Origin: a virus | Direction: 5' to 3' (one strand) | Virus record (IMG/VR): IMGVR_UViG_3300020396_000034 | Coordinates: 1 to 24,365 of that record | Length of the DNA: 24,365 bases | Program-made: the position numbers and the translations under genes | Part shown: positions 1 to 24,365 of the stretch, in pieces | How the letters are laid out: the number at the start of each line of letters is the position of its first letter | How positions within the stretch are numbered: the stretch's first letter is position 1 | The notes under the pieces: model-generated | What the model was told of the DNA's origin: nothing | What the model saw: only the letters and a program-made list of their open reading frames with translations | Databases searched by the model: none

Positions 1-3000
1 TCTATTTCTTCTTCCTCTTCTTCTTCGCTAAACCCTGGTATCAATGCGAATATAGCAGCCGATAAACCATTAAATATAAGATTTTGTATTGCTCCGTAAT
101 ACATTATTTTACTAAAGTTAGAAAAATCACTTTGCAGCATAGAAGTTGTTCCAGGCACTTGACGTCTTTTAACAATGTCCAATGCACTTCTTTTCATTAT
201 TCTTGAATACTGTTGAGTTGTATTTTGGAAAGCTAATACTAATCTTCCTAGTATACTCGCTTGTTCCATAGATACTAATGAAGGATCACTGGATTGCTGA
301 GACTGATCGGATACTTCTATAAAATCTAAAAACGCTTTATCTTCAGCTTGCTTTTCTGTATACAAGTTATCACCATCTGCATTTTTTTGACCTAAATAAG
401 TGTTAATTCTATTTCTATAAAAAGTAGCTCCACCTGATGCAATTGCAAAACTATCTGCTATTTGTGTAGGTGTAAAACCTTTTTTAAGTAACCAACTCAA
501 TGCTGCAACAGCTTTGTTTTTTGAATTTGCTGCTGCACTAGCTATTTCTGCTTCATTAACATCTGCTCTTAATCCACCTCTACGTTGCTTTAATTTATCA
601 GAATTAAATAATGTAGAAAAATCTTTCCAATATTGTTTTTGATTTGCAAACGCTGCACCTGCTTTGATAGGGTTGTTATCACTCCAATTTAAAAAGTTAC
701 TAGTTGAAAGCAATTGTAACAATGCTGATCTACGGTTAAAGAACATTATAGATCCGATTGAATTGTTTAACCAGTTATTCCATTTATTAACCTGAGCATT
801 TGAACCAGACGGTCTGTTGGTACCGTTTTTCATTCTATATAAAGAATCTTTCAAAGCGGTTACATGCCTTTTACCATATAAAGCTTCTATTTTATTTAGG
901 TTTACATCGCTAAATATTTCATCTACATTTTCAATCCACTGTGCTAAGTATGCTTTTCTACCGCCTTTTTCAGTTAAGTTATTTATATCTGAAAGTATTG
1001 TACCCACATCCCAGTGTTCACTTGGTTTTAACCACTCGTTACTTTTTGATATAGTAACTAAGCTGTCAGCATAAAGAGCTAACTCAGGATTACCTGCTAC
1101 ATAAGCAACTAAAGCACCAACCTCTTTTTCATTTAAACCAGGAACTGAATAACCAGCTTTACTCCATAAGTAAACCCTAACAGCTTGATCATTTGTATAA
1201 TCTTTAGTAGGTATTAAATCACCTATAGTTTTAGCTATATTAGGCATTGCTTTATTTAAAGCTTTAAAATCATTTTTAGTTGTTTGCTTAGCAACGTCAA
1301 TAGCAGCCATAGCCACAGTATAAGGTCTTATTAAGTTTTTATCAAACCAAGCCATATCTTTAGTACCTTGCTTTCCTTTACCAGAAAAAGTATAACTTGT
1401 CAGCAATCTAAAGTCTTCAGCAGAAGAAGGTAAGTAAAATTGATATTTACCTATATTAGCGCCCATTCTTTTAGCTACTATTTTAGAGTAAGTAATATCA
1501 GTAGAAACACCTTTGTTACGTTCAATTATACTGTTAAATTCTTTAGTTAAGCTTAGATTGTCTCTGGTTGAAGGCGCTTTTAAAGAACTTTCTTTTTTAT
1601 TGTTTTCAGCAGATAATTTATTAGCTTTAGCTATATCTTTTATAATATTTGCTGCAATATCTTTTTTAAGCTTTGTAACAGCTGGATCCAACAAAGGTTT
1701 GCCTGTTGTTACATCTAGAATGTTTTTAGTTTGTTTTATAGGAGCAGCTATAAGCCTTGCAGTGTCTAGCTCACTTGTTTGACCTAGTGCATCATTTTGT
1801 ATTTCAGAAATAAACGAAGAGTTAAAAACCAGTCCAAAGTCAGAATGTATTTGTCCAACCTTTTGTTCAAACTCTTGCATTATCCTACTTTTGTCTTCTG
1901 CAGTTTTTTCGCTGTTTATCCATTTTTGAGTTGCCTCTGCCGCGACTACTTGCAGCTGTTTAGCGACTTTGCCCATAGATTTCTGATGCTCTAATGTTGT
2001 TTTTAAAGCTTGAGCGATTGTCCATTGTTTTATAAACTCTAGCCTTTCCCCTTCAGGTATATTCTTAAAATCTTCATTTTCAAAAAACTTCTTAAGGTTT
2101 TTAAAAGCTCCTTTTTTCTCTAGGTAAGTTTCAGCCTCTTTCCAATTGGTATGCTTAGTATTGATAACAAGACCTGCTTTTGTGCTGGATTGTTGAGCAG
2201 CGGTAACGATTTTTAATCCTCCTTTAGAGTAGTATTTTTTACCATCTACAGCTGTGTATACCGCTTGGTTTGGAACAACTTCAATACCTTGCAAAAACCC
2301 AAGAGCTTTTAACCCAGTACTATTGTTATTGTTTGTTTCTAACCATCTTAAAAACCCTGCATATGCTTTATTTATATTGCTCGAGTCTAGCACGGATTCA
2401 AGAGCTGCTACATTAACAAACTTAAATAAAACAGTGTTGGCAATTTTGGCTTTTGTCATTTGTTTACCTATAGCGCTGTTGCTAAAATTAGTAAGCATTT
2501 GAGCACCTCCCTTTGCTAAATTATTTGTAATAAAATCTAATAAACTATTAACTGTTTTTCTTCCCATGTTGAATATAACAACATCCGGTAAAACACTTTT
2601 TAGTTCCGTTAATTTGTTTTTACTATATGCTCCTAATTTTGGCTCTTGTTTTAGGCTACTAACTGTTTCTTGATTTAGCTCACCCGCTCTACTGCTACTA
2701 CCTAGAAAGTTAAACCCCCTTACAGGGTTAAATAGATTACCTATAGCTTTTGAAAAATTAGTTTGAAAAGCTTGAAGATCAGCTGTAGCTTTTGCATTAT
2801 TTTTAAGATTGGTAGCGTCTAAAACATTTTTAGCAAACCTCTTGTAAGCTGTTTCTAATTCTGGGAATTTATCAATATATTTCGGCAAATTCTTTTTAAT
2901 TTCACTTTTCACCGCAGTGCTTAGCTTTGCGAACAACGGAACCGCGTTTTCATTCCAGTATTTTTTAACTTCATTGCTTTGGTCTACTAACCAAGCTTGC

Positions 3001-6000
3001 ACAGCAAAAGAACTAGTGTCACCTTTATTAGCAGTAAGTATATTTAAACCGGCTGAAATATTTTTACTAACAGAGAGCTTGATATTACCTCTTTCAATTT
3101 GACGAGAAAGCTCTTCTTCGAAGTTTTCTGTAATAACAACGCCTAGAGCTTCTTGGTTGTTTTTTAACGCTTCAGAAATAGGTCCATCCGTTTTTAAATC
3201 CTGATTAATAATATCAAAAGCAATTTCTTCACCCATAGCTTTAGCTAAGGATTCTTTTCTACCCCTAATAGGTTTACCGTCAGCACCTATAATAGAACTT
3301 AAAAATAATTCGTCCGATATAGCTTGGCTTACATTAGGTAATCTTCTTATTATTTCATTACCTGAGGTCTTGCCTTTTGCTTCTGTCGATGTTTTTTCTC
3401 TATCTATTTTAGCACCTTTCCACACATCGCTATTAACAAAGTTAGGAACAAAAGTAGCGTCTCCAAAAGCATTTATAACTCTATTACCATCTTTATCTAA
3501 TAAATATTTTCCACCAACAGACTTTTGTATCGCTTCTGGAAATGCTTTAGTCAAATAAAAGGTTGTCATATTCTCCAGGATAGCCTTTTTATTGGTTTTA
3601 AGGTAGTTTTGCAACTCGTTGTTCTTAATACCACCCATTTCTTTTTTAAGTACAATATCGGCTTGTTTTCCAATGTCCTTTTTTATCTCAGCAATGATTG
3701 GAGGTACACTTACGTTTTTAGTTACAGCTGCATCGAATTTAGATTTTAATACTCTAACAGATGAAATAACTTTGTCTCTAACGGTTTTTAATCCTTCGTT
3801 GCTTAAAACTCTTTGTTGTACTAAGTTTTTATATTTAGTTTTTTCAGGAGCAGCTGGTGCGGTTGGTTCGCTAGCTGTAATTCCTTTAGCCTTTGATAGT
3901 TCAACACCGAAAGAAGGATCTGCTACTTTTCCTGTTCTTAAAGCTCCACTCATCCTTTTGCCTAAAAAAGCCATTGAGTAGCCAAACAAAGAATTGTTTT
4001 GTTTTGGGTTAAATTTAGCAAGATAAGGCAACATACTAAGCATGGTTTCACTTACCATGTTTTCCATGTTAAACCCCGGCAAGGCAGTAAGATTTGATAT
4101 ACCTCCATCTTTTGTTTTAAAAGCTAATGATTTTGATCTTATCATTCCTTCTAATATATCATATATTTTAGAGTTGTTAGGGTTGTACCCGTTAGGGTCA
4201 TTACCTATTTCGTCAAGCTCTTTTTTAGATTTAGCTGTTAACTCTTTTAATGATTGACTATCTGCTTTAACAGGTTTTGGCTTAGCTACTGTTTTAGCTT
4301 TTTGACTTACTGCGGATTTATCAAATACTACAATGTTTTTAGTATCTTTTCCGGTTATTAAATTTGTATCTGTAAATCTAGTTGCTTTAATACCTTTTTC
4401 AGCAAGAGCTTCGTTTAGTTTGTTTAAATCTTCTTTAGTAAAAGCGTTTTCAAATCTAGCGTCTATTAATTCGTATAAACGAGAATCGTCTACTGTCCAA
4501 CCTTCAACTCTTGGCTGTATGTTTAGGTCTCTTATTATTTCAAATACTTGAGCTTCAGTAGCAATTTCAGCTTCATTTATTTTAAAGCTTTGCACTTTAC
4601 CGTTGCTGCCTTTAGCATACTCTTCTGCTTGCTTTTTACTTTCTGAAAAGTAAATGTTGCCATCTATATCGTTTACGGTTTTAACTGCTCCCCCGTGAAA
4701 TACTTCAATATCTTTTTTGGGGTCTTTAGTTACTACTGCTAATTCCGCTTTTTCAGCTCTTTCAATCTTACTTTCTAAGTTGGCTTTTTGCTGTTCGTAA
4801 ACATCAAAATCAATTTCACCATCACCGAATTCTGTTTCAAGCTGTTCTAATTGTTGATTAAACTTAGTAACACTTAACTTATCTTCTGTTAATTTTTCAT
4901 CTTCTTTACTGACAGCGGTTTTAACTATAGGATCTTGTACTGTTTTGCCTCCAAAATGACTAGCTTTATTATAATCTTTTACAAAGTAATATGCACTTTC
5001 ACCGTCTTTTAACTGGATTGTGCTTGGCAGAAATTTATTTGCAAAAAACCTAATTCTATCGATTGTGCTTTCTGTTACTTTTTGACCGTCAGCTAGCACA
5101 TCAGACATAGCATTCATTGCTTCTTCGTAGTAGTTTTTATCTTTTACAAGATCTCCTTCAATGTTTTTATCAGCGTAGCTTTCGTCAATTCTAAATTTAA
5201 CTTTAGCGTACAAATCAGGTTGATTTTTTTGTAAATATAATAACAGGCTTTCACCCGCGGCATCTATATTGTCTTGATTTTTACCAAAGTTTTCTTCAGC
5301 GTATTTATGTAAAACTTCATGTGCAAAAACGCCTATTCTCCTATTTTTAATAGAAGACTCCATATTAATTACAATTTGATTGCTCCCTTTTATTGCTCCT
5401 CCTTCGTATTGTCCTTTTTGAATAACTTCTCTAAGCGTTGTTTTACTGCCACTTTGCGCAGGTTTGTCTAATTTTCCTGGGTCATTTTTTTCAAAAAAAG
5501 CAATAATATCTTCTTTAGTTTCTGCAACAACAAACGCAACATCTAAACCTACGTCTTCTGCAAACTTTTGAGCATTTGCTTGACCCTTCTTTATTTTTGC
5601 TTTATAGGTTTTATTGACATAATTGCTTAAAGCTTTTTGATTTATTTCTTCTGCAGTAGGTTCTTTTGCACCTTCTTTTTTCTCGGCTTTTAATAACTCA
5701 ATAGCTTCATCCACCTCAGCCTGTTTTGCTTCAGGTGATAAGTTAGCGAAATCGTTTATCACATATTGAGTACTTTCCGCAAGCATTTTTGCTTTGTAAA
5801 ACTTATAGCCTTGCGAGTTATCAAAAGAAACACCTTGCGCTGCTGCATTTTTTCTAGCGGCTTTTATATCTGTTTCGTTAGTTAAGATCTGCTCTCTTTC
5901 CCCTGCTAATTCATTGAACTCTCCTCTTAGTACTTTTTCTATGTTTGATAAATCGTTGGCTTTTATATTAGGATTAGCGTAAGCGTCAATTAATCTTTTA

Positions 6001-8366
6001 TTTAGTCTACGTATTTTTCTATTTACTTCACCTACTTTCTCTAAAGCTTCTGGGGATAAGTCTGTACCTATTTTAAATAAAACACCGTCTTCTAAAGCTT
6101 TACCTTTTTTTACTAAATCATCTACAGTTTGTTGTGTTTCTGTAGGTAATTTTAAGCCTTTTAAAGCTGGATCAGAAGGCCCTTCAATTTTTACCTTAGT
6201 TAACTCTTGTAATTTAGATGTTATACTAAATAACTCGTCAACTTCTGCTTTATTAGCTAATTCACTTATTACAGCCTGCTTGACGCCTTTGAACGCCGTA
6301 ACGGCTCCAATTCCACCACCCATTAAAGCTCCTTGAGCAAAACTCTCAAGACCTCCTTCAAAAACATTTTTATCTTCATTTAAGAAATATACATCTCCTA
6401 TGTTTTGAAATAATGTAGTTCCAAATTCAGAACCTCCTTCAACCCTAAGGCCTTTTTCTAATTGCTTACCAACAAATTCAAATCCTTCTTTTATTGTTTG
6501 AGGAGGCAGCATTTTAACACCGTCCTTTAAACCTTTCAGAAGCCTCATTGTACCTATTCTTTCAAAAGCTACTTCAGCAATACCTGCAAGCGCTTGATTA
6601 CTTAGTACTTTCCATTCCGGGATATTAAGGAATTCAGCATCTTTATTCATTTGAGTTTCAATAGAAGCTCGCTCTAATCGGTCCATGCTAGGATTTTCCT
6701 CTAGTAGCTTACTATTATTAAGCATTCTTTCAGAAGCATCTTTTTGCTTAATAGCCGTTTCCATTCCCTTTCCACCAGCGCCTGACATAAAAAATAAAGG
6801 CATAGCAGCAGGACCGGTCATAGCCATTCCTAAAGAGGGTAATAAATTAGGCATAGACCCAGCAACCCATCTACCAGCATCTTTAATGCTACCTATTTTA
6901 TCTACAGTTATTGCTCTTTGAAAGTTTTCCATTTCTTTTTGCATATCACCGCCTAAAGAAACTAAACCAGTTTGTTCTTCTACTAAAGTAGACATTTTAA
7001 CTCCACTCGCTAATTTCATTAAAGAACCCGGGTCTCTAAGGATGCTTAACTGAGCCATGCTATACATAACATCTGTACCCATTGATTTAGTAGCTGAAAC
7101 AAGCTGCTCTAGCCTATCGTAGTTCCTATTAAAATCATCAATAGCATAAGGAATAGCTTTTTCTCTATCTGCAGCACCAGAGTCTTCTAATGTCTTTTGA
7201 GCTTTTTGCAAATCATTTTGCTGCTTTAAGAAAGATGATTGTAATTCAAATGCTTGTAAGTAGTTTTCTTTAGTTTTATTTTTATTGTAATTTTCTAAAG
7301 CTACTTCTAGTTGGTCTTTAGTATTAAATAAAGTACTAGCATTCTCTTTAAAGTTTGATATTTTTTCCTCGTCTTCAGAAGCAAGCGCTAGTATGGATGT
7401 TCTTTGAGCAGGTGTTAAATCACTAACATATTCGGATGACTTGTCTAAAGCGTAGTTCTTCTTACGTTCGCTATCATAGAAAGATATTTCATTATCAGTA
7501 AGATCTTTTACAAAACCATTCTTTTGCCAATCCTTATATGCTTTAAACTCTTCTGCACTATTAAAGTCTTCTCTTGTAGATTGTTTTTTTACTTTTTTAT
7601 TTCCACTTCCTTTGTAAAACCTTGCTTCTTCTGGTTTCATTAATCCAGATTCACGGTATTCCTTAAAAGTCATTGTCGATGTACTAGTATCCTCTTCTTG
7701 AAACTTTTTTAGCCTTTCACTTTTCGCGTTAGCGTTTATCTCATTTTTAGTTAAAGAAGGTGCTTGTATTTGTTCAACATAATTTCCATACGTTGTAGAT
7801 TCTTTTCCAGCAGAAGTAGCTAAATAATCTAAATTACCATTTTCTTTTATATAATTGTTAATTAGCTCTGCAGAAGCTTCTAAATCTTCTTTACTTTGGT
7901 TTCCACCAACTTTAATAGCTTTAAGTAGATCAGCTAAAACACCTAAGTTTGGATCAGCTTTATCTACATTCGACAACGATACCGCATCAAAGCCTCCTAA
8001 AGCAGTAGCTTGCTCGACTGTTATACCTAGCCTAGAAAGTTTTTTATTTAAAAAAGGAGCTATATCTTCTTCGCTACCTTTACCTAATTCCTTTGAGGTA
8101 ACATAGTATTTAGATTTTGGATCAGGATCTTGTGATTCCGATAAACCATTTTCCAATGTTAAATCCGTATCTGCTATTTGATTTGTCGGCACTACATTTG
8201 CAGTTGTTGTTGCAGCGCCTGTTGTATTTCCCGAGTCTTCGGTTATTAACTTTAAATTATTGCCTTGTACTATTTCTTCTACAGAAAGCCCACTTTCAGC
8301 AGCAAGTCTTAATAGTTGTTGTTCAGTTATTACTTTCCCTGTTCCTTCTTGACGGTAATCGCTCAT
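1..8366 (-). CDS. Giant multidomain polyvalent/ejection-type virion protein, C-terminus cut by window edge
   Basis: An uninterrupted frame of at least 2788 codons starts at the ATG at 8364-8366, 14 bases after the previous gene, and is still open at base 1. Seen: two Gly/Ala-rich hydrophobic stretches (about residues 495-530 and 665-695); HEVLH at residues 1016-1020, with a candidate third zinc ligand at E1081/E1082; an ADP-ribosyltransferase-like domain at about 1218-1352 (H1224 in VFHGG, Y1239 in IYFS, then AEEYAKG, closing NIVVFDKSAV); a sigma-region-2-like helix pair ending FNPKQNNSLFGY at about 1452; a long helical part at about 2330-2750; a hydrophobic helix at about 2753-2778; then a Glu run. 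Metallopeptidase and ART domains are known parts of phage polyvalent proteins delivered into hosts. The position after 277-aa and 435-aa proteins matches T7 gp16. I infer a packaged protein injected with the DNA that modifies host targets. No lysozyme or transglycosylase motif and no RNA polymerase DxDGD motif was seen. Confidence 0.9.
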   Translation of the reverse strand, partial: MSDYRQEGTGKVITEQQLLRLAAESGLSVEEIVQGNNLKLITEDSGNTTGAATTTANVVPTNQIADTDLTLENGLSESQDPDPKSKYYVTSKELGKGSEEDIAPFLNKKLSRLGITVEQATALGGFDAVSLSNVDKADPNLGVLADLLKAIKVGGNQSKEDLEASAELINNYIKENGNLDYLATSAGKESTTYGNYVEQIQAPSLTKNEINANAKSERLKKFQEEDTSTSTMTFKEYRESGLMKPEEARFYKGSGNKKVKKQSTREDFNSAEEFKAYKDWQKNGFVKDLTDNEISFYDSERKKNYALDKSSEYVSDLTPAQRTSILALASEDEEKISNFKENASTLFNTKDQLEVALENYNKNKTKENYLQAFELQSSFLKQQNDLQKAQKTLEDSGAADREKAIPYAIDDFNRNYDRLEQLVSATKSMGTDVMYSMAQLSILRDPGSLMKLASGVKMSTLVEEQTGLVSLGGDMQKEMENFQRAITVDKIGSIKDAGRWVAGSMPNLLPSLGMAMTGPAAMPLFFMSGAGGKGMETAIKQKDASERMLNNSKLLEENPSMDRLERASIETQMNKDAEFLNIPEWKVLSNQALAGIAEVAFERIGTMRLLKGLKDGVKMLPPQTIKEGFEFVGKQLEKGLRVEGGSEFGTTLFQNIGDVYFLNEDKNVFEGGLESFAQGALMGGGIGAVTAFKGVKQAVISELANKAEVDELFSITSKLQELTKVKIEGPSDPALKGLKLPTETQQTVDDLVKKGKALEDGVLFKIGTDLSPEALEKVGEVNRKIRRLNKRLIDAYANPNIKANDLSNIEKVLRGEFNELAGEREQILTNETDIKAARKNAAAQGVSFDNSQGYKFYKAKMLAESTQYVINDFANLSPEAKQAEVDEAIELLKAEKKEGAKEPTAEEINQKALSNYVNKTYKAKIKKGQANAQKFAEDVGLDVAFVVAETKEDIIAFFEKNDPGKLDKPAQSGSKTTLREVIQKGQYEGGAIKGSNQIVINMESSIKNRRIGVFAHEVLHKYAEENFGKNQDNIDAAGESLLLYLQKNQPDLYAKVKFRIDESYADKNIEGDLVKDKNYYEEAMNAMSDVLADGQKVTESTIDRIRFFANKFLPSTIQLKDGESAYYFVKDYNKASHFGGKTVQDPIVKTAVSKEDEKLTEDKLSVTKFNQQLEQLETEFGDGEIDFDVYEQQKANLESKIERAEKAELAVVTKDPKKDIEVFHGGAVKTVNDIDGNIYFSESKKQAEEYAKGSNGKVQSFKINEAEIATEAQVFEIIRDLNIQPRVEGWTVDDSRLYELIDARFENAFTKEDLNKLNEALAEKGIKATRFTDTNLITGKDTKNIVVFDKSAVSQKAKTVAKPKPVKADSQSLKELTAKSKKELDEIGNDPNGYNPNNSKIYDILEGMIRSKSLAFKTKDGGISNLTALPGFNMENMVSETMLSMLPYLAKFNPKQNNSLFGYSMAFLGKRMSGALRTGKVADPSFGVELSKAKGITASEPTAPAAPEKTKYKNLVQQRVLSNEGLKTVRDKVISSVRVLKSKFDAAVTKNVSVPPIIAEIKKDIGKQADIVLKKEMGGIKNNELQNYLKTNKKAILENMTTFYLTKAFPEAIQKSVGGKYLLDKDGNRVINAFGDATFVPNFVNSDVWKGAKIDREKTSTEAKGKTSGNEIIRRLPNVSQAISDELFLSSIIGADGKPIRGRKESLAKAMGEEIAFDIINQDLKTDGPISEALKNNQEALGVVITENFEEELSRQIERGNIKLSVSKNISAGLNILTANKGDTSSFAVQAWLVDQSNEVKKYWNENAVPLFAKLSTAVKSEIKKNLPKYIDKFPELETAYKRFAKNVLDATNLKNNAKATADLQAFQTNFSKAIGNLFNPVRGFNFLGSSSRAGELNQETVSSLKQEPKLGAYSKNKLTELKSVLPDVVIFNMGRKTVNSLLDFITNNLAKGGAQMLTNFSNSAIGKQMTKAKIANTVLFKFVNVAALESVLDSSNINKAYAGFLRWLETNNNNSTGLKALGFLQGIEVVPNQAVYTAVDGKKYYSKGGLKIVTAAQQSSTKAGLVINTKHTNWKEAETYLEKKGAFKNLKKFFENEDFKNIPEGERLEFIKQWTIAQALKTTLEHQKSMGKVAKQLQVVAAEATQKWINSEKTAEDKSRIMQEFEQKVGQIHSDFGLVFNSSFISEIQNDALGQTSELDTARLIAAPIKQTKNILDVTTGKPLLDPAVTKLKKDIAANIIKDIAKANKLSAENNKKESSLKAPSTRDNLSLTKEFNSIIERNKGVSTDITYSKIVAKRMGANIGKYQFYLPSSAEDFRLLTSYTFSGKGKQGTKDMAWFDKNLIRPYTVAMAAIDVAKQTTKNDFKALNKAMPNIAKTIGDLIPTKDYTNDQAVRVYLWSKAGYSVPGLNEKEVGALVAYVAGNPELALYADSLVTISKSNEWLKPSEHWDVGTILSDINNLTEKGGRKAYLAQWIENVDEIFSDVNLNKIEALYGKRHVTALKDSLYRMKNGTNRPSGSNAQVNKWNNWLNNSIGSIMFFNRRSALLQLLSTSNFLNWSDNNPIKAGAAFANQKQYWKDFSTLFNSDKLKQRRGGLRADVNEAEIASAAANSKNKAVAALSWLLKKGFTPTQIADSFAIASGGATFYRNRINTYLGQKNADGDNLYTEKQAEDKAFLDFIEVSDQSQQSSDPSLVSMEQASILGRLVLAFQNTTQQYSRIMKRSALDIVKRRQVPGTTSMLQSDFSNFSKIMYYGAIQNLIFNGLSAAIFALIPGFSEEEEEEEI

Positions 8367-8380
8367 AATTGTTGTTTAAT

Positions 8381-9688
8381 TTAGTTTTTTATTCTTATTG
8401 TATCTCCTGTTAGCGCTCTAAAATCGCTATAATTTAAAGTTTTATTTCCTTTTTTATCTACATTATATAATGGAAACTTGTTGTTTTTATCATCTACAAA
8501 ACCAGGAGTGTCTAAATCTAAATCTAGTTTTTGTGGTATTATAAATCCTTTTTCTATTTTGTAATTTTTACCATTTGCAGAAATTGTTTTTCCTTCAGGA
8601 TTTTTTGCTAATGCTCGAAGTTGTATATCGGTTTTATAGTAGGAACCTTTTTCAGGCTTAGGTAATTGTACAGAAATACCATTTGCAATACTAGCACCTA
8701 TAGCTTCTTCTACGTAATATTCTCTTATTTGTTCTAAAACTTTTTCTTCACCTTCAGAAGCTAAAGCTTGCTTTAAAGTAATTGAATTACCTAACTTATC
8801 TTGCCATATACTATTTGTATAAGTGTAATTACTAGGAGTTCTTACTAAGTCTTGACTTAATCCCGCAACAGCTGCATAAGCCTTTTGTCTATCTACAGTA
8901 TATATTTCATTTGATTTTCCAGCAACAGGAACCAATCTTGATTCTTTTTTAAGTATACCATCTTTTACTAAAGCAGGTATGTCTAAATTTTTACCGCTTA
9001 ATCCCATTTGTGATAAATAAGTATTTGTTATACTTGAATCATCTGATACGGTATTAAATATTATTTGATTAGGGTTGGTTTTTAACCCATTTGTAATATT
9101 TGAAACATTAAGCTTATAAGTTTTACCGTCTACATTTGTTACTAAAGTTCTTGCTCCAGCTTCATTGGTTTCAATTTTAGTATTTTTTCCGCCGCTTTGC
9201 ATGTCTTTAACAACTTCTAGCGTATTCAAATCATTTGTTGCACTGATTGATCCTGTTTTACCAGGTGCTATTGATAAACCTTTGCGGAATTGATCAACAA
9301 GGTATTTACCTGTAGCAAGGTCTGCTGTAAGACCCTCTGGATACTTGTTTAATTTATTTATTTCCGCTTTAGCTTTAGCTCTTTGTTCAGGACTTGAAAA
9401 CGTTTTACTCATTATATCGTACTGAGCAGCTATTTTTTGTTTAGCAGCTTGAGCTTCTGCAAATATTTGATTTTCAAAGTTATTTTCACCTTCTTCAAGG
9501 GTTAGTCCCATTTTATTAATGTCGTCATCGATGGCTTGCTGAGCAGCAATGCTTTCACCTATTAGTTGACCTTTACGAACTCTTTCTTCGGTAGCAAATG
9601 TGTAAACATCTCCAGCGAGTTTTTGTATGCCTTGATATACTGCAGCCCCTGTGTTTATTGGTGCTGCTTTTGGATTTCTATAACTCAT
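8381..9688 (-). CDS. Putative internal virion/ejection protein (435 aa)
   Basis: Not recognised as a named family. The N-terminal third (about residues 10-125) is Ala/Gln/Lys-rich and strongly helical, likely coiled coil. The rest is mixed and polar, with Asn/Lys-rich strand-forming stretches and no signal peptide or clear membrane helix. It lies between a 277-aa Ala-rich amphipathic protein and the giant polyvalent protein, 14 bases from each. That is the map position of T7 gp15, although T7 gp15 is longer (about 750 aa). I infer a structural protein carried in the capsid that either forms part of the DNA-ejection conduit or holds the giant protein. The start is preceded by an A/T leader made of TAAA units with no Shine-Dalgarno. 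A minor tail-tip protein is the main alternative. Confidence 0.75.
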   Translation of the reverse strand: MSYRNPKAAPINTGAAVYQGIQKLAGDVYTFATEERVRKGQLIGESIAAQQAIDDDINKMGLTLEEGENNFENQIFAEAQAAKQKIAAQYDIMSKTFSSPEQRAKAKAEINKLNKYPEGLTADLATGKYLVDQFRKGLSIAPGKTGSISATNDLNTLEVVKDMQSGGKNTKIETNEAGARTLVTNVDGKTYKLNVSNITNGLKTNPNQIIFNTVSDDSSITNTYLSQMGLSGKNLDIPALVKDGILKKESRLVPVAGKSNEIYTVDRQKAYAAVAGLSQDLVRTPSNYTYTNSIWQDKLGNSITLKQALASEGEEKVLEQIREYYVEEAIGASIANGISVQLPKPEKGSYYKTDIQLRALAKNPEGKTISANGKNYKIEKGFIIPQKLDLDLDTPGFVDDKNNKFPLYNVDKKGNKTLNYSDFRALTGDTIRIKN

Positions 9689-9702: not shown

Positions 9703-10536
9703 TTATTTACCGCCAACTCCCATTGAACTTCTCATTTCTCCTCTAGTGGTGGTTTTATTTGAGTTTTTGGCTTTTTCGTTTACAACTTCCCCTGCAGCTC
9801 TTTTAGCTCTATTTTCTTCAACTAATCCACCTACAGATGAAGCTACTGCACCTAAACCACTAATAGCGCTACCCACAGCACCATCTCTAGCTTGTTGATA
9901 ACTAGCTACGGCAGCTTGAGCATTTTCAACTTCCGCTTGCGCTCTATCTAGTTGTTCACCTTCTCTCACTTCAGTTGCTTTAAATACGTAGTCTTTACCC
10001 GATGCTTCCGCTTGTTGTATACGTTTAGCTTCAGACATAGATACACCTTGCAATCTTAATTGCTCAGACATTTTAGCTTGATCTAATCGCATTTCTGCTT
10101 GAGCGGCATTTTGCTGATTAGCAACTTCTTGTTTTTCTATACTAGCAGATACACCTTTTTTGCTTTGCATAGCAGCCTGAGCTAACGCGGTCGCTCCACC
10201 AGCACTTGCTCCGGTAGCAGCTAAAGTATCTAATGTATTTGCTAAAGCAATGTCAGCTTGTTCTATTTCTATTTCAGCCGCTTGCGTTGCAACACCTATA
10301 TTAGCCATACGATTTTTTAACATACCAGAAGCGTCTGTTGCCATACCAGCTACGCTCTCCATGCCTGCATATGGATTTATAATTTCTTGCCTTGAAGCTT
10401 CTAGCTCTGCAAGATTATTTTTAGCTCTGTGAGCATCTCCTTTTGCGCTTTGTGCTTTTTGATTTGCGCTGATAGCTTGTACACCTGAGCTTACTACTGC
10501 TGCTCCTGCGGCTATTAAGCCTGTTACTACTCCCAT
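9703..10536 (-). CDS. Putative internal virion protein, T7 gp14-like in layout (277 aa)
   Basis: Seen: a Gly/Ala/Val hydrophobic N-terminus (residues 1-25, beginning MGVVTGLIAAGAAVV), a long Ala/Gln/Glu helical middle with heptad-like spacing (about 35-210), a second small-residue hydrophobic stretch (about 217-240, including GSAISGLGAVASSVGGL) and a basic, polar tail ending GVGGK. There is no signal-peptidase-type cleavage site. This layout of two membrane-active ends around a coiled coil is typical of podovirus ejection proteins such as T7 gp14, which insert into the host envelope. The gene ends 14 bases before the 435-aa gene and begins 2 bases after the GNAT-like gene, which implies co-translation in one operon. 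The role is inferred from composition and synteny rather than a recognised family motif. Confidence 0.75.
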   Translation of the reverse strand: MGVVTGLIAAGAAVVSSGVQAISANQKAQSAKGDAHRAKNNLAELEASRQEIINPYAGMESVAGMATDASGMLKNRMANIGVATQAAEIEIEQADIALANTLDTLAATGASAGGATALAQAAMQSKKGVSASIEKQEVANQQNAAQAEMRLDQAKMSEQLRLQGVSMSEAKRIQQAEASGKDYVFKATEVREGEQLDRAQAEVENAQAAVASYQQARDGAVGSAISGLGAVASSVGGLVEENRAKRAAGEVVNEKAKNSNKTTTRGEMRSSMGVGGK

Positions 10537-10538
10537 AT

Positions 10539-10940
10539 TTATATATTTTTTACTATTTCATAACTAGAATTATCATCTACTGTATAACCTAATTTTTTAT
10601 GTTCGTTTATAAGATTTTTACTTCTTCCTATGCTAAATACAACTTTAAAGCCAGCGTCTTTACCCCATTTTTCTAAAGAAGATATTAACAAGGATATAGC
10701 TTCTGATTTATTTTTTTGTTTAGGATCTGAAACAATCCATTCCATCCAACATATATCAGAGTTGGTTACATATAAAAAACCAGCTATTAAAGGTTTACCT
10801 TCTCTTTCAATCATTACACCACCTGTTCCGTTTTCAGGCAGTAAGTTTCTACCTAATGGTTCCCACTTTGGCCAAGATTTCCACCATTCAACTATGGTAT
10901 CATAATCTTCGTGTATTAATTTTCTTGCTTTTAATTTCAT
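10539..10940 (-). CDS. GNAT-like N-acetyltransferase, in the T7 gp13 map position (133 aa)
   Basis: The length and strand/helix order fit a compact GNAT fold. The N-terminal segment ARKLIHEDYDTIVEWWKSW is followed by LPENGTGGVMIE, a strand IAGFLYVTNSDICWMEWIV leading to the SDPKQKNKSEA turn (the usual acyl-CoA pyrophosphate loop region), a helix ISLLISSLEKWGKDAGFKVV, and a C-terminal HKKLGYT motif of the kind common in GNATs. The canonical Q/RxxGxG/A loop is degenerate here (QKNKSEA), so activity is uncertain. The gene lies between the tail-hub genes and the ejection proteins, 5 bases from one and 2 from the other, where T7 carries the similar-sized gene 13. It may acetylate a virion or host protein or an amino-glycan; the substrate is unknown. 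A non-catalytic structural GNAT fold is also possible. Confidence 0.75.
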   Translation of the reverse strand: MKLKARKLIHEDYDTIVEWWKSWPKWEPLGRNLLPENGTGGVMIEREGKPLIAGFLYVTNSDICWMEWIVSDPKQKNKSEAISLLISSLEKWGKDAGFKVVFSIGRSKNLINEHKKLGYTVDDNSSYEIVKNI

Positions 10941-10945
10941 TTAAT

Positions 10946-12397
10946 TTAATATGATGATTCTACATAGTTGGTTGACACTGCAAACAATTCTTTTTTACCT
11001 GTTGGGTCTGTAGTGCTATCGACTGAAAAAGTAGCTGTAGCAAACATACCCTTTATTCCTGACATTGATTGACCATAAATAATTTCGCTAGGTCTAGATA
11101 AACTATTGTTTTTAAGATTAGAAACATATTTATTTTCTTTTCTATCAAAACCAGCCCTTAACCTTGTGTAAGGAGGGTTAGTAGTTTCAAAAGCAGACTG
11201 ATAGTTAGCCGGCAATATAGGCTGCCCATCTGTAGGGCTTGGTATAAATTCTCCTTCACTATAACTTTTTATAGGAAAAGATTTATCAGTATAATTAACT
11301 CCACTATCAGCACCTGTAGCATCTGAAATAAAAGAAGTCAATTGCCATCCATTACTACCTTCATAACCTACTGTTGAAAAGTTTTTAGATAAAGATACTT
11401 TGGAGTTAAAAACAGTTGTTACCGTTGAGTTAACGGTTTGACCGTATAGTTTATTATAATCGCTTCCAAAATGATGCTTCCAAAGACCGTTATTGGTTAA
11501 GTTTCCAGCTTCACCGCTAAATGTTGAATAAAAACAATTTTTTAAACTAAAAATATTATCAGGCTTATAACTATATCTACTAACCCATCCTTTAGATTGT
11601 TCGTCAAAAGCCAAAGTGTCATAGTCTATGCCGTTGATATTTTGTAAAGAAACAACATATGTTTTAGTATGTACATCAAAACCACCTATAATTTTACCTT
11701 CATTAAAAGAGTTAAGGTCTATTTCTGTAAACCTATCTCTAAAAAAGTCTTTCATACCGTATCCAGATATTTCAGTAATACCATCCGATGATAATCTTAA
11801 TACTGCATTTCTGTTTTTATCTGTAAAATATTTTCTATAACCATAAACAGCAAAACTCTCTGGATTTTTTGATATACCATATTCCCCAGCATAAGGAACT
11901 ACTTGTCCAATAACTTGAGAGCCAGAAGTTGTTATTGCTCCACCCTCAGCGGAATAAATAGCATCCTTATCAATCAATGCTCTACTTACTTTGTTTTCCT
12001 GTAATATTGTAAGGTTAGTGTTTTCAGCGTGTAGTTTTTGAATACTACCGTTTGAAGGGTCTAAGCTTCTAGTTATTTCTTCTCCTACCGGAAATTGGTT
12101 TGTATTATTAACACCTGTTCTTGAATTAAATATACCAGAATATATTAAACTGTTAGGCCTTATAGATCCTTTGTTAGTATTTGCTACTAAATAAGCTTTA
12201 GCTCCAAAATCTACAGAAGTATTGTTATACCCGCCTCTAATTCTAGATTCTTCAATAATCCAGTTTCTAGCATCATTACTTGCCAACCCTGGTGTTTTAT
12301 ACCACACAGGTTGGTTAGCCGGGGTAGCGTCACTTGGAGTAGCTGTCTTACGTAGTAGAAAAGAATTGAAATATTTTACTTCTATAATAGCGGCCAT
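10946..12397 (-). CDS. Tail-hub/stabilisation partner protein (483 aa)
   Basis: A beta-rich, Asn/Ser/Tyr/Gly-rich protein without signal or membrane segments. Recognisable blocks are RIRGGYNNTSVDFGAKAYLV (about 49-68), a stretch with NTNLTILQENKVSRALIDKD followed by AIYSAEG (about 125-155), and a repeated Tyr/Phe-rich part with SFAVYGYRKYFTDK then LRLSSDGITEISGYG (about 178-215). As I remember it, these blocks occur in the C-terminal half of long tail/stabilisation proteins of marine podoviruses, whose N-terminal half begins like the gene just upstream. I infer a propeller-like tail-hub component that works with the 1254-aa protein, comparable in place to T7 gp12 or P22 gp10. It begins 37 bases after that gene, with its own ATG and A/T leader, so it is a separate polypeptide. 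The exact function is inferred. Confidence 0.78.
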   Translation of the reverse strand: MAAIIEVKYFNSFLLRKTATPSDATPANQPVWYKTPGLASNDARNWIIEESRIRGGYNNTSVDFGAKAYLVANTNKGSIRPNSLIYSGIFNSRTGVNNTNQFPVGEEITRSLDPSNGSIQKLHAENTNLTILQENKVSRALIDKDAIYSAEGGAITTSGSQVIGQVVPYAGEYGISKNPESFAVYGYRKYFTDKNRNAVLRLSSDGITEISGYGMKDFFRDRFTEIDLNSFNEGKIIGGFDVHTKTYVVSLQNINGIDYDTLAFDEQSKGWVSRYSYKPDNIFSLKNCFYSTFSGEAGNLTNNGLWKHHFGSDYNKLYGQTVNSTVTTVFNSKVSLSKNFSTVGYEGSNGWQLTSFISDATGADSGVNYTDKSFPIKSYSEGEFIPSPTDGQPILPANYQSAFETTNPPYTRLRAGFDRKENKYVSNLKNNSLSRPSEIIYGQSMSGIKGMFATATFSVDSTTDPTGKKELFAVSTNYVESSY

Positions 12398-12434: not shown

Positions 12435-15400
12435 TTAAGGAACAACGTCACATAAAATACCTATTAGTGATTCTTCCTGAAGAACACCATTAACGTTAAC
12501 CTCTAAAGCGACAGCGTCAGAAGCGTTATCTTCATAGTATAAATATTGAGCTCCACCAGGAGGAACGTAGTTTGAAGTTCTATTTATATCTTCATATAAT
12601 TGTATATCTGCTTCTATAGCACCACCTGAAACCATAAAGTTATTGTCAAAATCAGATTTAAGCATGTATGCTTGGTCTACAGTTCCGCTAGTACTTCCGC
12701 TGCAGGCTGCGTTTTTAGTTGTATATTTTGGACTTCCTCTGTAAAAAGAAATTACCACACCTGGCTCAACATATGTAAAATTAACAGGTACAGATACAGA
12801 AGCTCCCCCTGCATCAGTAGCTGTAAAATTAAGAACAAAGTTTTCAGTAATATCAATAGATAAAGGCGGAATTAATTGAACTTTACCAGTGTTACTTAAA
12901 GATAACTGAAATGCTTGACCAGTACTGCTTTGCAATTCCATAACCCGACTGCTTCCTGATGTATAAAAAGAAACTGATCCATTCCCATTTAAAAAACCTG
13001 GTTGTAAAGTATCCCATTCATATGAAATATCTTGTAATTTTTTATTAGCATCAAAAGCTCCATTAAACACGGTAGCTTGAAAATAATTACTACTAATTTG
13101 CCAATAATTAGGAAAAGTATGAGGTGGAGTTGTAGCAGGATTGTAAACGCTAGCGCTTAAAATAGGTGTTACATTTTGCAAAACACCGCTTTTTTCTATA
13201 ATAGTAACAGGGGCGGTAAAAAACATATTGGTACCACTCCCGAGAGTAACCGGATTGCTAATTGTTATATTGTTACCACTTATACCTGTCACTGTAGTAC
13301 CTGCGGGTACATTAGACCCTTGGTCCGTAACGGATTGCGTAATAAATACACCTGTAGTATCGTTTAGAGGTAGTGTTACAGAATTATTTACAGCCACTGT
13401 TACGTTTATTCCTGAAGTAACAGAGTCCGCACTATTAACTAACCCTATTGAAAAAATGTAAGATTCTTCAATAGCACCGGTTGCTCCGTAATAAAAGTCT
13501 GTATTTATTTTTATTCTATACTTTTTAATATTGTTTACTGTATTTGCCTCAACAGAAAAATCGTTAGTTCTATTATTTCCTAACCCGTCTTGTACTGAAA
13601 AACTAAATAACGCACTATTGTTAATATCACCTACGCCTTGATTTGTTGGTAAAAATTCATCAGTTACGTACCTAGAATTATTATCACCGGTTGTATTACC
13701 TGTACCTGAAGGGTCTTGCCATTCTCTATGTACATATGTAAAAGTATCAAAATCTTGAACGGGTGATCCTTGATTAGCTCTTACCGCTTCGTTTAATTCA
13801 GATATTAATCCTGTTGTTGATGTTTCATAGTAAATATCTAGGTTAGACTCAAAAGGTTTTGTTTCTGCTACAGATAAAAAAGGGTTCATATGTGTATGCG
13901 TAACCCCTAAAGCACTTGGCGTACTTATTCTTGCTATTAAAGGATTATTATCACTGTTGTATATTGCATCATCAGCGCCTCCTGCTCCTAAGTTGTTTAG
14001 CTCGTCGTAAGCTCCTATAGTAGGTATTTGATATATTTTTTCCCCGGGATAAAACTGCTCATTGCTATTTAAGTTTCCTGATAAAAGAAGATTTTCAACT
14101 ATAGGAAATAAAGTTTCATCACTTCTATATAGTTTTTGATCAGGGCCTACTTCTATTAAAGATCTTGGAACCTTGTTTATATTATCGCTAAATAAAGCTA
14201 TGTGAGAAATTTCTCCTTGCTCTGTGGTATTTGTTAAAAATCCATTTAAAAACCCAGGTAAATAAACGTTATAGTATTCTTGCTGTGTTTGCTTTACAAC
14301 CACCTTGTAAGAGTACCAACCTGTTGGGTTTGTTGTAGCGTTGTATAAACCAGGTTCGCCTGTAGAGGCTGCATTATCAACACTTAAAGGGCTTTTATTG
14401 CTAATAATTTCTTCATTTAATCTTATTTTAATAGAGTTACCAATACTAGCAAGTGCCGTGGTAGCGTCGCCTGACTTCCTATAAGGAAAGTAAAAGGTAG
14501 AAGCTCCAAACAGGGAGTTGGAAGCATTGTTACTGCTTACGTTTGATAGTATAACATCAGACTGTCTTCCATATCTGTCACTTAAAATAAAACCCACTTG
14601 GTAGTTTCTATTTCTTTTTAAAGTATGTTCAGGGTATTCTATATATGAGTAGTTACTATCTGATCCAGAAGAAAACTTTTGAGTAGCAGCAACTTGATAT
14701 TTTAAATGAGCAGGAGCGGTATGTTTGTTAACATAGTTTCCGTAAATAATCCTGTTACCGCTAACTTCTTGAGCAAGTGCTTTTACTGGTGTTTTATCAT
14801 AAACCCTAGTTGTTTGGTTTTGCGGAAGAGTTTTAATAGGTTTTCTAGACTGATAACTATATTCATAAACACTAGAAGCTCCTGCTAAATCTTGTATTTC
14901 TTCAACTTCAACAGTATCTAAAACACTAATAGAAACTCCGTCAGATTCTTTATATAATATATCTATTTCTTTTATTTTGTAGTTTTCTTCTAAAGAGTTC
15001 CCGGCACTTGGCAAGTTAATAACTAAAGATATTTGATTAACTTTGTTTTCCATAAAAGAAACAACGGTACTTTGATAAGTCTTGTTTTCGTCTGATGAAA
15101 TAAGGTTATTACCGGCGTCATATCTATCTATAAAACTTCCGTCTTGTTTAGGTATAAAAGCTATTTGAGTAAAAGGGGCTATAATAGAATACTCCCCGTC
15201 GTCGTACTTAAATCTGTAGCTAAATCTAACAAATTTATCCTGCAAGTATGTAGGATCTCCTGCGTAGTCAGAATTATAATCAGGATTAGCTGTGGTGTCA
15301 TTGGGTAGTTTTTCGCTAACCACATCTTTCATGGTCGTTTTATAAGTTCCTGAATAATCTTTATACAGATCTATAGGCTTATAGGGAGCATATTTTGCAA

Positions 15401-21489: not shown

Positions 21490-23895
21490 TCACCTAGGTT
21501 CGAATTGTTCTAGGCCAAATCCACCGAGGTTGTCAAACCCGGCTGATTCAAAATTCTTTGGTAAAGAATCATTTTTTCTTTGATCAATTAACTCGCTTTG
21601 TTGAGTTGCTTGTATTTTTGTTCTATCGTCTTTACGATCTTCTTTATATTTTTCTTCATCTCTTTTTACTCCAGAATTAGCTTGGGCTAATTGCATATTG
21701 TATTGGAACTCTACTTCCATCAATTGCTTTTTAATCTCTGCTTCTTGTTGTAACTTTTGAATATCAAATTGAGATTTTGATTGTTCTATTTGTATTTTAG
21801 TCTGCGCTAAAGCTTGTTGCTTTTGTACTTCCGCCATAGCAGCCGCTTCTGACGCTTGTGCATTTGCTTGCGCTTGCGCTTGTATGTTTGCTTGCTGAGC
21901 CGCTCTATCAGCTTCTTCTTTTTTCTTTCTTCTAAATTTAATAGATTCGTTTGCTAGCTTTATGTTTTTAATTTGTCTAATATCAATAGCGTCCTCTAAA
22001 TTAATACCGCCCGATTGTAATGCAACTTGAATGTTTTGTTCTAGCTGTTGCTTTTCTTCTTCGTCAGGTTCTAGTTCTAAAAATATTCCAAAGTCATGCA
22101 GGTTTAAATCTACGATTTCTTTAAGGATTTCAGCATTATATATTGATATACTGGATTCTATTGATTGTCTAGTTAAAGGAAACTCTATTAAATCAGCAAC
22201 TTTTAAAGATATGTTTTCACACGTTTTAAGAGTTAAATATAAACTTCCTTGTAATATATGTCTTGTAGCTACATTTGATTGATTAGCAGCCATTTTTTGC
22301 AACCCTACTAAAGCGTTTTTATCCGGAGTACTTCCGTCTCTTGCTTCGTTTAATCCGGTTACGTCTCTAATCATTTGCAAGTAATACTGATACGTATTAA
22401 TTAAAGAAGCTATTTTACCTTGACCCGATGACGAAGTTAACTGTTGAACAGGTATTTTACCTCTATTCATATCACCGTCTTGCGTAAGTGATCTACCTAC
22501 AACGCTACCAGTTTGGAAATACATATTCAATGCTTCCGCTGGACTGTATGAAGTACCATTACCTAAATCAACTTCAGCTAAACCGTCCATATCTAAAAAT
22601 ACTCCATCTGGAACTATTTTAGCCATCACTTGTTGTAACTTCAAATGTGTTAGTTGAATCATATCAGCAAACCCTGTAATACGCCCAACTAAAGATTCTA
22701 TTTTACCTTTGTACATTCTAGGCGCACAAATAGAGTAGTTCATAGAAACTTTTGTAGTATCAGCAAATGGTCTAGTCATATTTTCAGCTAATTCCCATTT
22801 AAGTATTTTGTTATAACCTAAAACTTTTACACCAGAGTATATGACATCTATGGCTCTAGATACTTTTTTAAACGTATCGTTTTCAGGTGGATTAAACTCA
22901 TCCGTTTTTTCAATAGCTTTTTCTAAACCTTGATCTGTTTTCTTTATTTTAAATACCTGATTTCTGTATGTTTTATATTCAAAATAAACTAAAGAAACTT
23001 TACTATCATCATAGTTGCTGTAGCCATTGAGATAATTATCGGATCCCGCCATTTTTTCAATCTCCTTCATTTCCTCATTACTAAGGCTAGGAAATTCTTT
23101 TTTAATTTCAGCTAATGTAACTTCTTTAGCTTCACCTACATAATAAAGATCTCCAAAGTTTGGATCTTCTGTATAAGAATAAACTAAGTTAGCAGGGTCT
23201 ACGTAGTCAACAGTAATGCCTTCTGCTTTATTAAAGTTTGTTTTAGTTGCAGCAATACCTATAGTTGTTAAATCGTAGTTTAGCCTACGTTTTGTCAATG
23301 TGTATTTATTAGTATCTAATACTGTATTAATTACTTCTTCTTGAGCTATTTCTATATTTTGCTTGTAATCAAGCTGCATATATAATGAAAGTTGATTTTC
23401 ATTTTCAGGTAACATAGAAGGATCTTCTACATTATAAGTATCCATACCTAACTGAGACATCATTTTTTCATTGAACTCTCTAGTATTCATATCTGCAACA
23501 ATAGCGGATACGTGCTCTGTTCTTTGTCTGTTTGATTCAGGGTCTTGAGCAAATGCTTTTATATCGTAATTTTTTTGTGATATACCGTTAACTACTATAT
23601 CTACAAACTTAGGTATCACAGGAACTGGTTTCCAATCTAAATTCAAATAAGATAAATCGCCATTTATTGACAACTCATCTTTATATTTTTGAATAGACTG
23701 CTCACCTCTAGCATACAATCTAAGCTGATGAAATCTACTATAGTTTGACGAAAACCTATTGTTTGATGATCTGGAACCTCCAAACCATTCGTGCTCTATT
23801 GCTCTAGCTACTTTTAATCCATACTCTAGACTAGCTTTTTCTTCATCGCTAACAGTTTGTGTAGGAAACGAGCTATTGTAATTAGTTTCTATCAT
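21490..23895 (-). CDS. Portal protein (801 aa)
   Basis: The large portal type of crAss-like and marine podoviruses. The N-terminal block contains FHQLRLYARGEQSIQKYKDE (about residues 54-73), then LNLDWKPVPVIPKFVDIVVN (about 85-104). The central block contains VTGLNEARDGSTPDKNALVG (about 508-527), then LQKMAANQSNVATRHILQ, which I recognise from this portal group. The last 170 residues are a long Gln/Ala/Lys coiled coil (about 655-760) followed by a short Gly/Phe-rich end (GFDNLGGFGLEQFEPR). The portal forms the dodecameric ring at the head vertex through which terminase pumps DNA; the C-terminal helices would form the barrel inside the head. The start codon directly follows the terminase stop (TAAATG), so translation is probably coupled. 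Confidence 0.9.
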   Translation of the reverse strand: MIETNYNSSFPTQTVSDEEKASLEYGLKVARAIEHEWFGGSRSSNNRFSSNYSRFHQLRLYARGEQSIQKYKDELSINGDLSYLNLDWKPVPVIPKFVDIVVNGISQKNYDIKAFAQDPESNRQRTEHVSAIVADMNTREFNEKMMSQLGMDTYNVEDPSMLPENENQLSLYMQLDYKQNIEIAQEEVINTVLDTNKYTLTKRRLNYDLTTIGIAATKTNFNKAEGITVDYVDPANLVYSYTEDPNFGDLYYVGEAKEVTLAEIKKEFPSLSNEEMKEIEKMAGSDNYLNGYSNYDDSKVSLVYFEYKTYRNQVFKIKKTDQGLEKAIEKTDEFNPPENDTFKKVSRAIDVIYSGVKVLGYNKILKWELAENMTRPFADTTKVSMNYSICAPRMYKGKIESLVGRITGFADMIQLTHLKLQQVMAKIVPDGVFLDMDGLAEVDLGNGTSYSPAEALNMYFQTGSVVGRSLTQDGDMNRGKIPVQQLTSSSGQGKIASLINTYQYYLQMIRDVTGLNEARDGSTPDKNALVGLQKMAANQSNVATRHILQGSLYLTLKTCENISLKVADLIEFPLTRQSIESSISIYNAEILKEIVDLNLHDFGIFLELEPDEEEKQQLEQNIQVALQSGGINLEDAIDIRQIKNIKLANESIKFRRKKKEEADRAAQQANIQAQAQANAQASEAAAMAEVQKQQALAQTKIQIEQSKSQFDIQKLQQEAEIKKQLMEVEFQYNMQLAQANSGVKRDEEKYKEDRKDDRTKIQATQQSELIDQRKNDSLPKNFESAGFDNLGGFGLEQFEPR

Positions 23896-24365
23896 TTATT
23901 TTATTATTTTCGAAATGGATCCGTTATTATCGTATCTTTTAAAAGGTAAAGATATTTTGCTTTTTTGTCTAGCAGCTACAGGCGTATATCTATTTTTATT
24001 GCAAGCCATAATAGCTAAACCAGAACTTATAGAAGCATCATGCTTTGTCCTGTTGTTTATGTTAAACTTCGCCCAGTCTTCTAAGGTTCGTTGCATGTAC
24101 ATATTACCATACCCTTCTCCTGTGTAACCAACGTGGGTTTCTATATAAGATTCAATTGCAGCGGCGTGAGCCTGTTTTATATCTTCACTTGAATTCGGTA
24201 TGCCCCCTATTTCTTTTTCCGTCACCGACAGCTTGTTCCAAACTTTGTCTGGTCTATTCATGCTATACCCTCTGTAGCCTCTTCTTTTAAAATGATAAAG
24301 TAATCTAGGTTTATTATTTTCCGCTAATAATGGCATACCATAAAATACACAAGCCATTAATACAT
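23896..24365 (-). CDS. terL: Large terminase subunit, C-terminal end only (window edge)
   Basis: The frame is open to the right edge. The ATG at 24357 is internal, because the codons upstream (Leu, Val) continue the frame and the fragment lacks any terminase ATPase part. The 156 residues visible match the end of the RNase H-like nuclease domain of crAss-like/marine podovirus terminases: CVFYGMPLLAENNKPRLLYH, then KRRGYRGYSMNRPDK, and near the end NINNRTKHDASISSGLAIMA, whose Asp is a good candidate for the last metal-binding acidic residue (compare the DDxxDA helix of other TerL nucleases). The enzyme cuts and pumps concatemeric DNA into the procapsid through the portal encoded next. Its stop codon abuts the portal start codon. 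The N-terminal ATPase half lies outside the window. Confidence 0.85.
   Translation of the reverse strand, partial: VLMACVFYGMPLLAENNKPRLLYHFKRRGYRGYSMNRPDKVWNKLSVTEKEIGGIPNSSEDIKQAHAAAIESYIETHVGYTGEGYGNMYMQRTLEDWAKFNINNRTKHDASISSGLAIMACNKNRYTPVAARQKSKISLPFKRYDNNGSISKIIK

Follow-up and report, generated by a model that had tools for sequence, protein, structure and literature searches.

A giant gene at the end of the virion-gene cassette of an uncultured podovirus: a probable polyvalent virion protein with a constant C-terminal core and an interchangeable front

What kind of protein is encoded by a reading frame that fills a third of a viral contig and does not end within it? This question is raised by one end of a 24,365-base virus contig, an entire IMG/VR record, which is referred to here as the window. 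The original prediction was that a single uninterrupted minus-strand frame, open at the window edge, encodes a giant polyvalent protein at the end of an ejection cassette. The frame itself proved sound. It starts with an ATG, takes up 34% of the window and reaches the edge without encountering a stop codon; the probability that a stop-free run of 2,788 codons occurs by chance is ~10^-76 given the window composition. The G+C content at codon positions 1, 2 and 3 (0.45, 0.35 and 0.21, respectively) is of the coding type. Comparison of the C-terminal 443 codons with those of relative L096 identified 20, 9 and 105 differences at the three codon positions, indicating that the end of the giant is under purifying selection.

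An intact homologue of 2,545 codons in another relative (L004, IMG/VR 3300025704_000065) reaches ~246 residues beyond the last codon of the window and is followed by genes on the opposite strand; the full-length giant would therefore contain ~3,030 residues. The orientation of the downstream genes varies among other relatives. An automatic scan for a terminator after the stop codon of the giant was positive in 4 of 111 relatives, and inspection of L004 by eye identified a hairpin and T run after the stop codon that the scan had overlooked. In L003 (IMG/VR 3300046167_000556), a close relative over much of the part preceding the C-terminal core (the front), the giant is split into several frames. 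These breaks are probably sequencing or assembly errors; possibly the gene is decayed.

The terminase, portal, ring, hub and muzzle proteins of the window matched head and tail PHROG families. The best matches of the portal protein, with 42–52% identity over 98–99% of its length, were to Manatee Spring podovirus, Maribacter phage Panino, Flavobacterium elemo phages and Cellulophaga phages. The ring protein and a 133-aa protein also aligned with relatives, the gene order was collinear, and a giant was the last gene in the Manatee Spring phage, Panino, elemo and Cellulophaga phages (3,859, 1,829, 3,694 and 1,691 codons, respectively). From these sequence comparisons we conclude that the virus is an uncultured podovirus and kin of Cellulophaga phage phi38:1 and the Flavobacterium elemo phages, which are phages of marine flavobacteria. 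A shared gene order with homologues of the portal, terminase, ring and tail proteins places it near the Pervagoviridae and Pachyviridae, a statement of relatedness and not of family assignment. Gene order and synteny, both in the window and in the relatives looked at, bear out the predicted terminal place of the giant gene, which is the last of the virion cassette. Homologues of the 277-aa protein were present upstream of giants in 34 relatives. In the phi40:1 record the syntenic giant, gp101, is annotated as a structural protein by experimental MS/MS.

The 133-aa protein (10539–10940) keeps its place from the elemo phages to phi38:1; gp098, the protein at this place in phi40:1, has an MS/MS-based annotation as structural, and one relative is labelled an acetyltransferase complex subunit. 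The adjoining genes at 10946–12397 and 12435–16199 match separate parts of phrog_14478 (924–1205 and 2–157 of 1474, respectively), and the collinear place in phi38:1 is occupied by a single 1,324-aa gene, gp097, so the hub/muzzle gene may be split in the window.

Table 1. Location of the giant frame, its parts and the neighbouring virion genes in the window
Feature	Residues	Coordinates	Strand	Basis or remark
Giant frame, 2,788 codons, C-terminus incomplete		3..8366	minus	ORF, comparison with L004
N-terminal tip	1–85	8112..8366	minus	89% identical in L004
Glycine-rich hydrophobic stretch region	~500–916	5619..6869	minus	Homologous to elemoA giant, 2e-8
Zincin-like metallopeptidase domain (predicted)	~960–1166	4869..5489	minus	HExxH at 1016–1020, Glu at 1082
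ADP-ribosyltransferase-like motif set	~1219–1351	4314..4712	minus	H1224 (VFHGG), Y1239 (IYFSES), D1349 (VFDKS)
Sigma-70 region-2-like segment, NMENMVSETMLSMLPYLAKFNPKQNNSLFGYSMAFLGKRMSGALR	1433–1477	3936..4070	minus	Profile comparison, suggestive
Conserved module	~1500–1790	2997..3869	minus	Common to about a dozen of 61 first-collected giants
Poorly shared middle	~1800–2260	1587..2969	minus	HAD domain of relatives absent here
Constant all-alpha C-terminal core, cut by window edge	~2280–2788	3..1529	minus	
435-aa protein, ejection/cargo position, directly upstream of giant		8381..9688	minus	Inference from synteny
277-aa protein, ejection/cargo position		9703..10536	minus	Inference from position
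Muzzle/tail protein		10946..12397	minus	crAss_MUZ_C 4e-5, slightly short of the curated cut-off; phrog_14478 5e-49
Portal protein		21490..23895	minus	phrog_6547, 2e-151
Terminase large subunit, C-terminal part		23896..24357	minus	phrog_6681

Searches with the giant frame yielded no credible match in Pfam or PHROGs, and the protein had no match by sequence in the PDB. A tblastn search of 50,697 phage records returned nothing for the frame at E ≤ 0.01 and nothing for the core at E ≤ 1. The profile search for Pfam LPD and PolyVal families that had been proposed as a check was also negative; the LPD, MPTase-PolyVal and ART-PolyVal families were absent from the window protein at E ≤ 1 and from the fronts of 67 relatives at E ≤ 0.01. 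The finding named in advance as contradicting a polyvalent protein, one ordinary family such as a virion RNA polymerase from end to end, was not obtained: the giant has no Pfam or PHROG match, no DxDxD motif and no similarity to crAss001 gp47, gp49 or gp50.

The last 476 residues of the giant within the window were used as the query for related loci and identified 159 in IMG/VR, and a profile of the core identified at least 591 IMG/VR contigs. As these loci were picked by the core, its presence among them is by construction. The core was also sought independently in 13 virus records chosen via an unrelated ring/tail gene; 12 of them encoded it, and the remaining record is a 28-kb fragment. Labels on metagenome-assembled (MAG) contigs with the core were mostly Bacteroidota, and a few Aliivibrio, Woesearchaeota and Alphaproteobacteria labels are probably binning noise. 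Among 114 unique complete giants of 2,000–3,532 aa, the core measured 708 ± 33 aa and the front 2,122 ± 278 aa.

An AlphaFold2 model of the core, for which the L096 sequence was used (93% identical to the window), was all-alpha with a pLDDT of 81. The core was common to all giants, and the long, conserved, helical C-terminal part of the original prediction is thus upheld. The first BFVD matches to this model were four sequence relatives from uncultured viruses (38–45% identity), followed by C-terminal pieces of many giant phage proteins (10–16% identity, best TM ~0.55–0.59), several of which are annotated as polyvalent-associated. Comparison of the model with PDB structures produced nothing significant and no fibre-like match. 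Homology of the core to the C-terminal parts of the phi38:1, elemoA, Panino and Manatee Spring giants was considered and was undetectable by HMM. LPD38 (PF18857) was set aside as the identity of the core; the Bacteroidota matches available for that comparison were nearly all low-complexity proteins.

The most conserved enzyme of the giants lies in the front. A single HExxH motif was present per front in 111 of 114 giants (shuffling expects 0.8); the window motif is HEVLH (H1016, E1017 and H1020), with E1082 downstream. An alignment of 44 diverse fronts, in which columns averaged 18% identity, was invariant only at the His, Glu and His of this motif and at a Glu 66 residues past the first His. 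The near-universal single motif together with the invariant downstream Glu argues for a zincin peptidase, which strongly confirms the metallopeptidase motif noticed at the outset; we predict a zincin metallopeptidase, and its catalytic residues are intact. This domain is also present in the elemoA giant (4e-9). PDB profile matches at the zincin site included HtpX and IrrE and were weak (E ~2). MPTase-PolyVal (PF18818) was rejected as the identity of the domain, as the profile comparison aligned the HExxH helix only.

Profile comparison of the region behind the zincin with the PDB returned two chains at E ≤ 5, both of them sigma factors aligned in region 2 (E 0.3 and 1). Apart from the window giant, 113 of 114 giants had this sigma-like region according to an iterated HMM, at a median of 96 aa after HExxH. 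In one pre-chosen comparison, hhalign aligned 68 columns of the sigma-like profile with a set of 30 bacterial sigma region-2 sequences (P = 2.6e-4). A rebuilt profile found sigma factors only at E 1.3–1.7 in a PDB profile search, and giants were not found when a sigma HMM was the query. The model of residues 940–1800 was of low confidence (pLDDT 67) and had no significant fold match; sigma chains were enriched among its Foldseek matches, every one of which had E > 0.5. In searches of whole databases the similarity to sigma factors did not reach significance, and the presence of a sigma-region-2-like segment after the zincin, in the window as in nearly all giants, is suggestive.

An ADP-ribosyltransferase (ART)-like domain had also been predicted. 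The order of H1224, Y1239 and D1349 fits the H-Y-D order of polyvalent ARTs, in which these residues lie in strands 1, 2 and 5 (Iyer 2017, PMC5512222). A Bacteroidota ART-PolyVal sequence has a similar EV[FW]HG pattern, and the low-confidence model has strands at the His and Tyr. The motif set was found in L002, which belongs to the window lineage, and was not found by motif in the 114 complete relatives. The window protein had no ART match in Pfam, and profile comparison with a reference of two sequences, one of them with an internal stop, was negative. The predicted domain is thus ART-like at the level of motifs only, and the motif set is lineage-specific.

Along the window protein, only the core was common to all 61 first-collected giants. 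Coverage of the front was low, with humps at the zincin (17 giants) and at the module around residues 1,500–1,790 (12 giants). Comparison with L004 shows the conserved N-terminal tip followed by ~750 replaced residues, 37% identity in the zincin region, no ART-like segment in L004 and 71% identity over the remainder. Pairs with 80–90% identical cores shared 65% of the front on average and 12% at minimum, and relatives with 87–93% identical cores can have little front in common. L166 and L167 are 93% identical over the last 922 residues, 91% over 3.4 kb of DNA downstream and 88% over the upstream DNA that aligns, yet all that their fronts of 2,157 and 1,703 aa (~450 aa apart in length) share is a short tip and one stretch of 25% identity. 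This pattern looks like replacement and not drift. Genes upstream of the giant differ too in some pairs, and rapid divergence in place of recombination could account for part of the front variability.

Several modules of the front were recognized. The predicted hydrophobic segments are present, although few and moderate; phi38:1 gp101 has, in the region that corresponds to residues ~500–916, homology to elemoA and to other giants of the window's family. A HAD-like phosphatase domain lies directly before the core, at a near-fixed distance, in 73 of 114 relatives (e.g. L139:9329-9958) and is absent from the window subclade. Its DFD.T, LTAR, K and DD motif residues were invariant in 27 aligned examples, and a PDB profile search gave no match. 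Zeta-toxin/AAA_33 kinase models matched 5 of 67 fronts scanned, indicating a P-loop, zeta-like kinase in a few giants. The domain mix expected of a polyvalent protein is firm for the zincin, at motif level for the ART and suggestive for the sigma-like segment in the window, with HAD and zeta/AAA_33 kinase domains in relatives.

Giants of this kind have precedents in DEV (gp71; PMC10925440), crAss001 (PMC10172136), N4 (PMC12633501) and the polyvalent proteins (Iyer 2017, PMC5512222). N4 gp50 consists of a membrane N-part, the polymerase, an HExxH domain (C1) and a helical C2 part with no known structural relatives (PMC12633501). Like the window giant, this Schitoviridae protein closes the virion cassette after two smaller ejection genes (gp52-gp51-gp50), is ~3,000–3,500 aa long and combines a membrane-type N-part, an HExxH domain and a large all-helical C-terminal part. 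In contrast to gp50, the window giant lacks a polymerase domain, and its front is swapped among relatives. Homology was limited to the HExxH surroundings (i-E 0.007), with no alignment of the core. Since nothing else aligns, the window giant may work like an N4-type ejection giant minus the polymerase, but we do not identify it as one.

crAss001 has the same order of muzzle, two medium genes and a giant gene, and its gp45–gp50 cargo is carried in the virion (PMC10172136); no sequence similarity to gp45–gp50 was detected, and the crAss001 giants are RNA polymerase-related. The gp101 proteins of phi38:1 and phi40:1 (Pervagoviridae) share the position and the hydrophobic-region family, and phi40:1 gp101 is found in virions; they differ in lacking HExxH and in a C-terminal part that does not match the core profile. 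elemoA gp90 shares the position, hydrophobic region and zincin, and its C-terminal part likewise does not match the core profile. Polyvalent proteins (PMC5512222) resemble the window giant as giant multi-domain phage proteins with a zincin hub and effector-like modules, and proteins annotated as polyvalent have C-terminal pieces similar in fold to the core (TM ~0.55, 11–14% identity). A zincin hub and the corresponding Pfam domains are frequent in polyvalent proteins but not required; the window giant carries none of these Pfam domains, and its zincin was not matched to MPTase-PolyVal. In the literature consulted, we found no description of a constant C-terminal core with a variable front, nor of the sigma-like segment.

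T7 gp16 is a large ejection protein encoded at the end of the ejection operon. The original prediction placed the giant at the position of gp16, and as a positional analogue at the end of the cassette this holds; the family does not match, as the giant has no Pfam or PHROG match to the transglycosylase N-domain and gp16 is less than half its size. N4 gp50 and crAss001 gp47 are closer counterparts with respect to position and layout.

The most likely explanation for these results is that the giant is a polyvalent virion protein with a constant packaging/ejection end and interchangeable host-takeover cargo in front. The place in the virion cassette, the MS/MS detection of phi40:1 gp101, the zincin, the mosaic modules and the core fold favour this explanation; the ART is at motif level and the sigma segment suggestive. 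The original interpretation is partly supported, and its polyvalent element mostly holds. By analogy with phi40:1 gp101, the giant would be packed inside the particle, where its constant end would dock to the portal, the tail or the DNA. When infection begins, it would exit ahead of or together with the DNA, and its hydrophobic region may assist at the inner membrane. The zincin might cut the chain to free the modules, or clip a host or virion protein. Before phage gene expression begins, the exchangeable modules could disarm the host or redirect its RNA polymerase. The layout corresponds to that of the N4 virion RNA polymerase (membrane N-part, HExxH domain and large helical C-terminal part) minus the polymerase.

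It is conceivable, if rather doubtful, that the particle delivers a sigma factor. The region-2-like segment of nearly all giants would bind host RNA polymerase at entry and direct it to phage promoters, freed from the chain by the adjacent metallopeptidase, and the anti-host modules around it would be cartridges exchanged on the constant C-terminal loading domain.

We consider it improbable that the giant is a head or tail maturation protease or scaffold whose work is confined to assembly, without delivery to the host. The zincin is its most conserved enzyme, and processing of P1 DdrB precedes packaging (Iyer 2017, PMC5512222); however, ~2,000 residues of exchangeable ART-like or kinase modules would be needless for an assembly factor, and the phi40:1 counterpart remains in the virion. 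A tail fibre or adhesin-like structural protein, with a front made variable by receptor recognition, is quite improbable as well. Receptor-binding proteins typically vary in this swap-like way beside an unchanging end, and in some pairs the genes directly upstream vary too. Against it are the near-universal zincin with all catalytic residues retained, a helical core whose fold is shared with polyvalent giants and had no fibre-like match, the fronts of some relatives that include a zeta-like kinase or HAD phosphatase module, and a post-muzzle position that is that of the crAss001 cargo proteins.

There is little chance that the giant is an ordinary late anti-host protein, made after entry and merely adjoining the virion genes. 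The virion MS/MS does come from phi40:1 and not from the giant's own clade, but the syntenic giant was detected there, and the relatives looked at have a giant as the final gene of the virion cassette. The idea that the giant is a diverged N4-type or crAss-type virion RNA polymerase was rejected as most unlikely: genome place, size and layout are similar to N4 gp50 and crAss001 gp47, and in gp50, too, an HExxH domain precedes a helical C-terminal part, but DxDxD is missing from the window frame, the alignment with gp50 does not extend to the polymerase part, the core, zincin and sigma-like profiles have no similarity to crAss001 gp45–50 or phi14:2 gp76, and the front is less conserved than expected of a polymerase.

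What is new about the polyvalent virion protein that we favour is its architecture of constant core and interchangeable front, the presence of a zincin in nearly all members and how abundant the family is outside culture. With at least 591 IMG/VR contigs and yet none among 50,697 phage records, a large virion-protein platform of environmental phages appears to have been overlooked. If the explanation is correct, a constant loading end with a swappable front would constitute a natural protein-delivery chassis, and the family would provide a catalogue of anti-host modules in which each exchanged front marks candidate counter-defence enzymes. The N4 virion RNA polymerase layout of membrane part, zincin and helical end may then be a general ejection chassis that is independent of the polymerase.

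One IMG/VR relative, the 129,537-base record L023, contains two core-bearing giants ~62 kb apart, as a result either of two genomes having been joined or of a cassette duplication.
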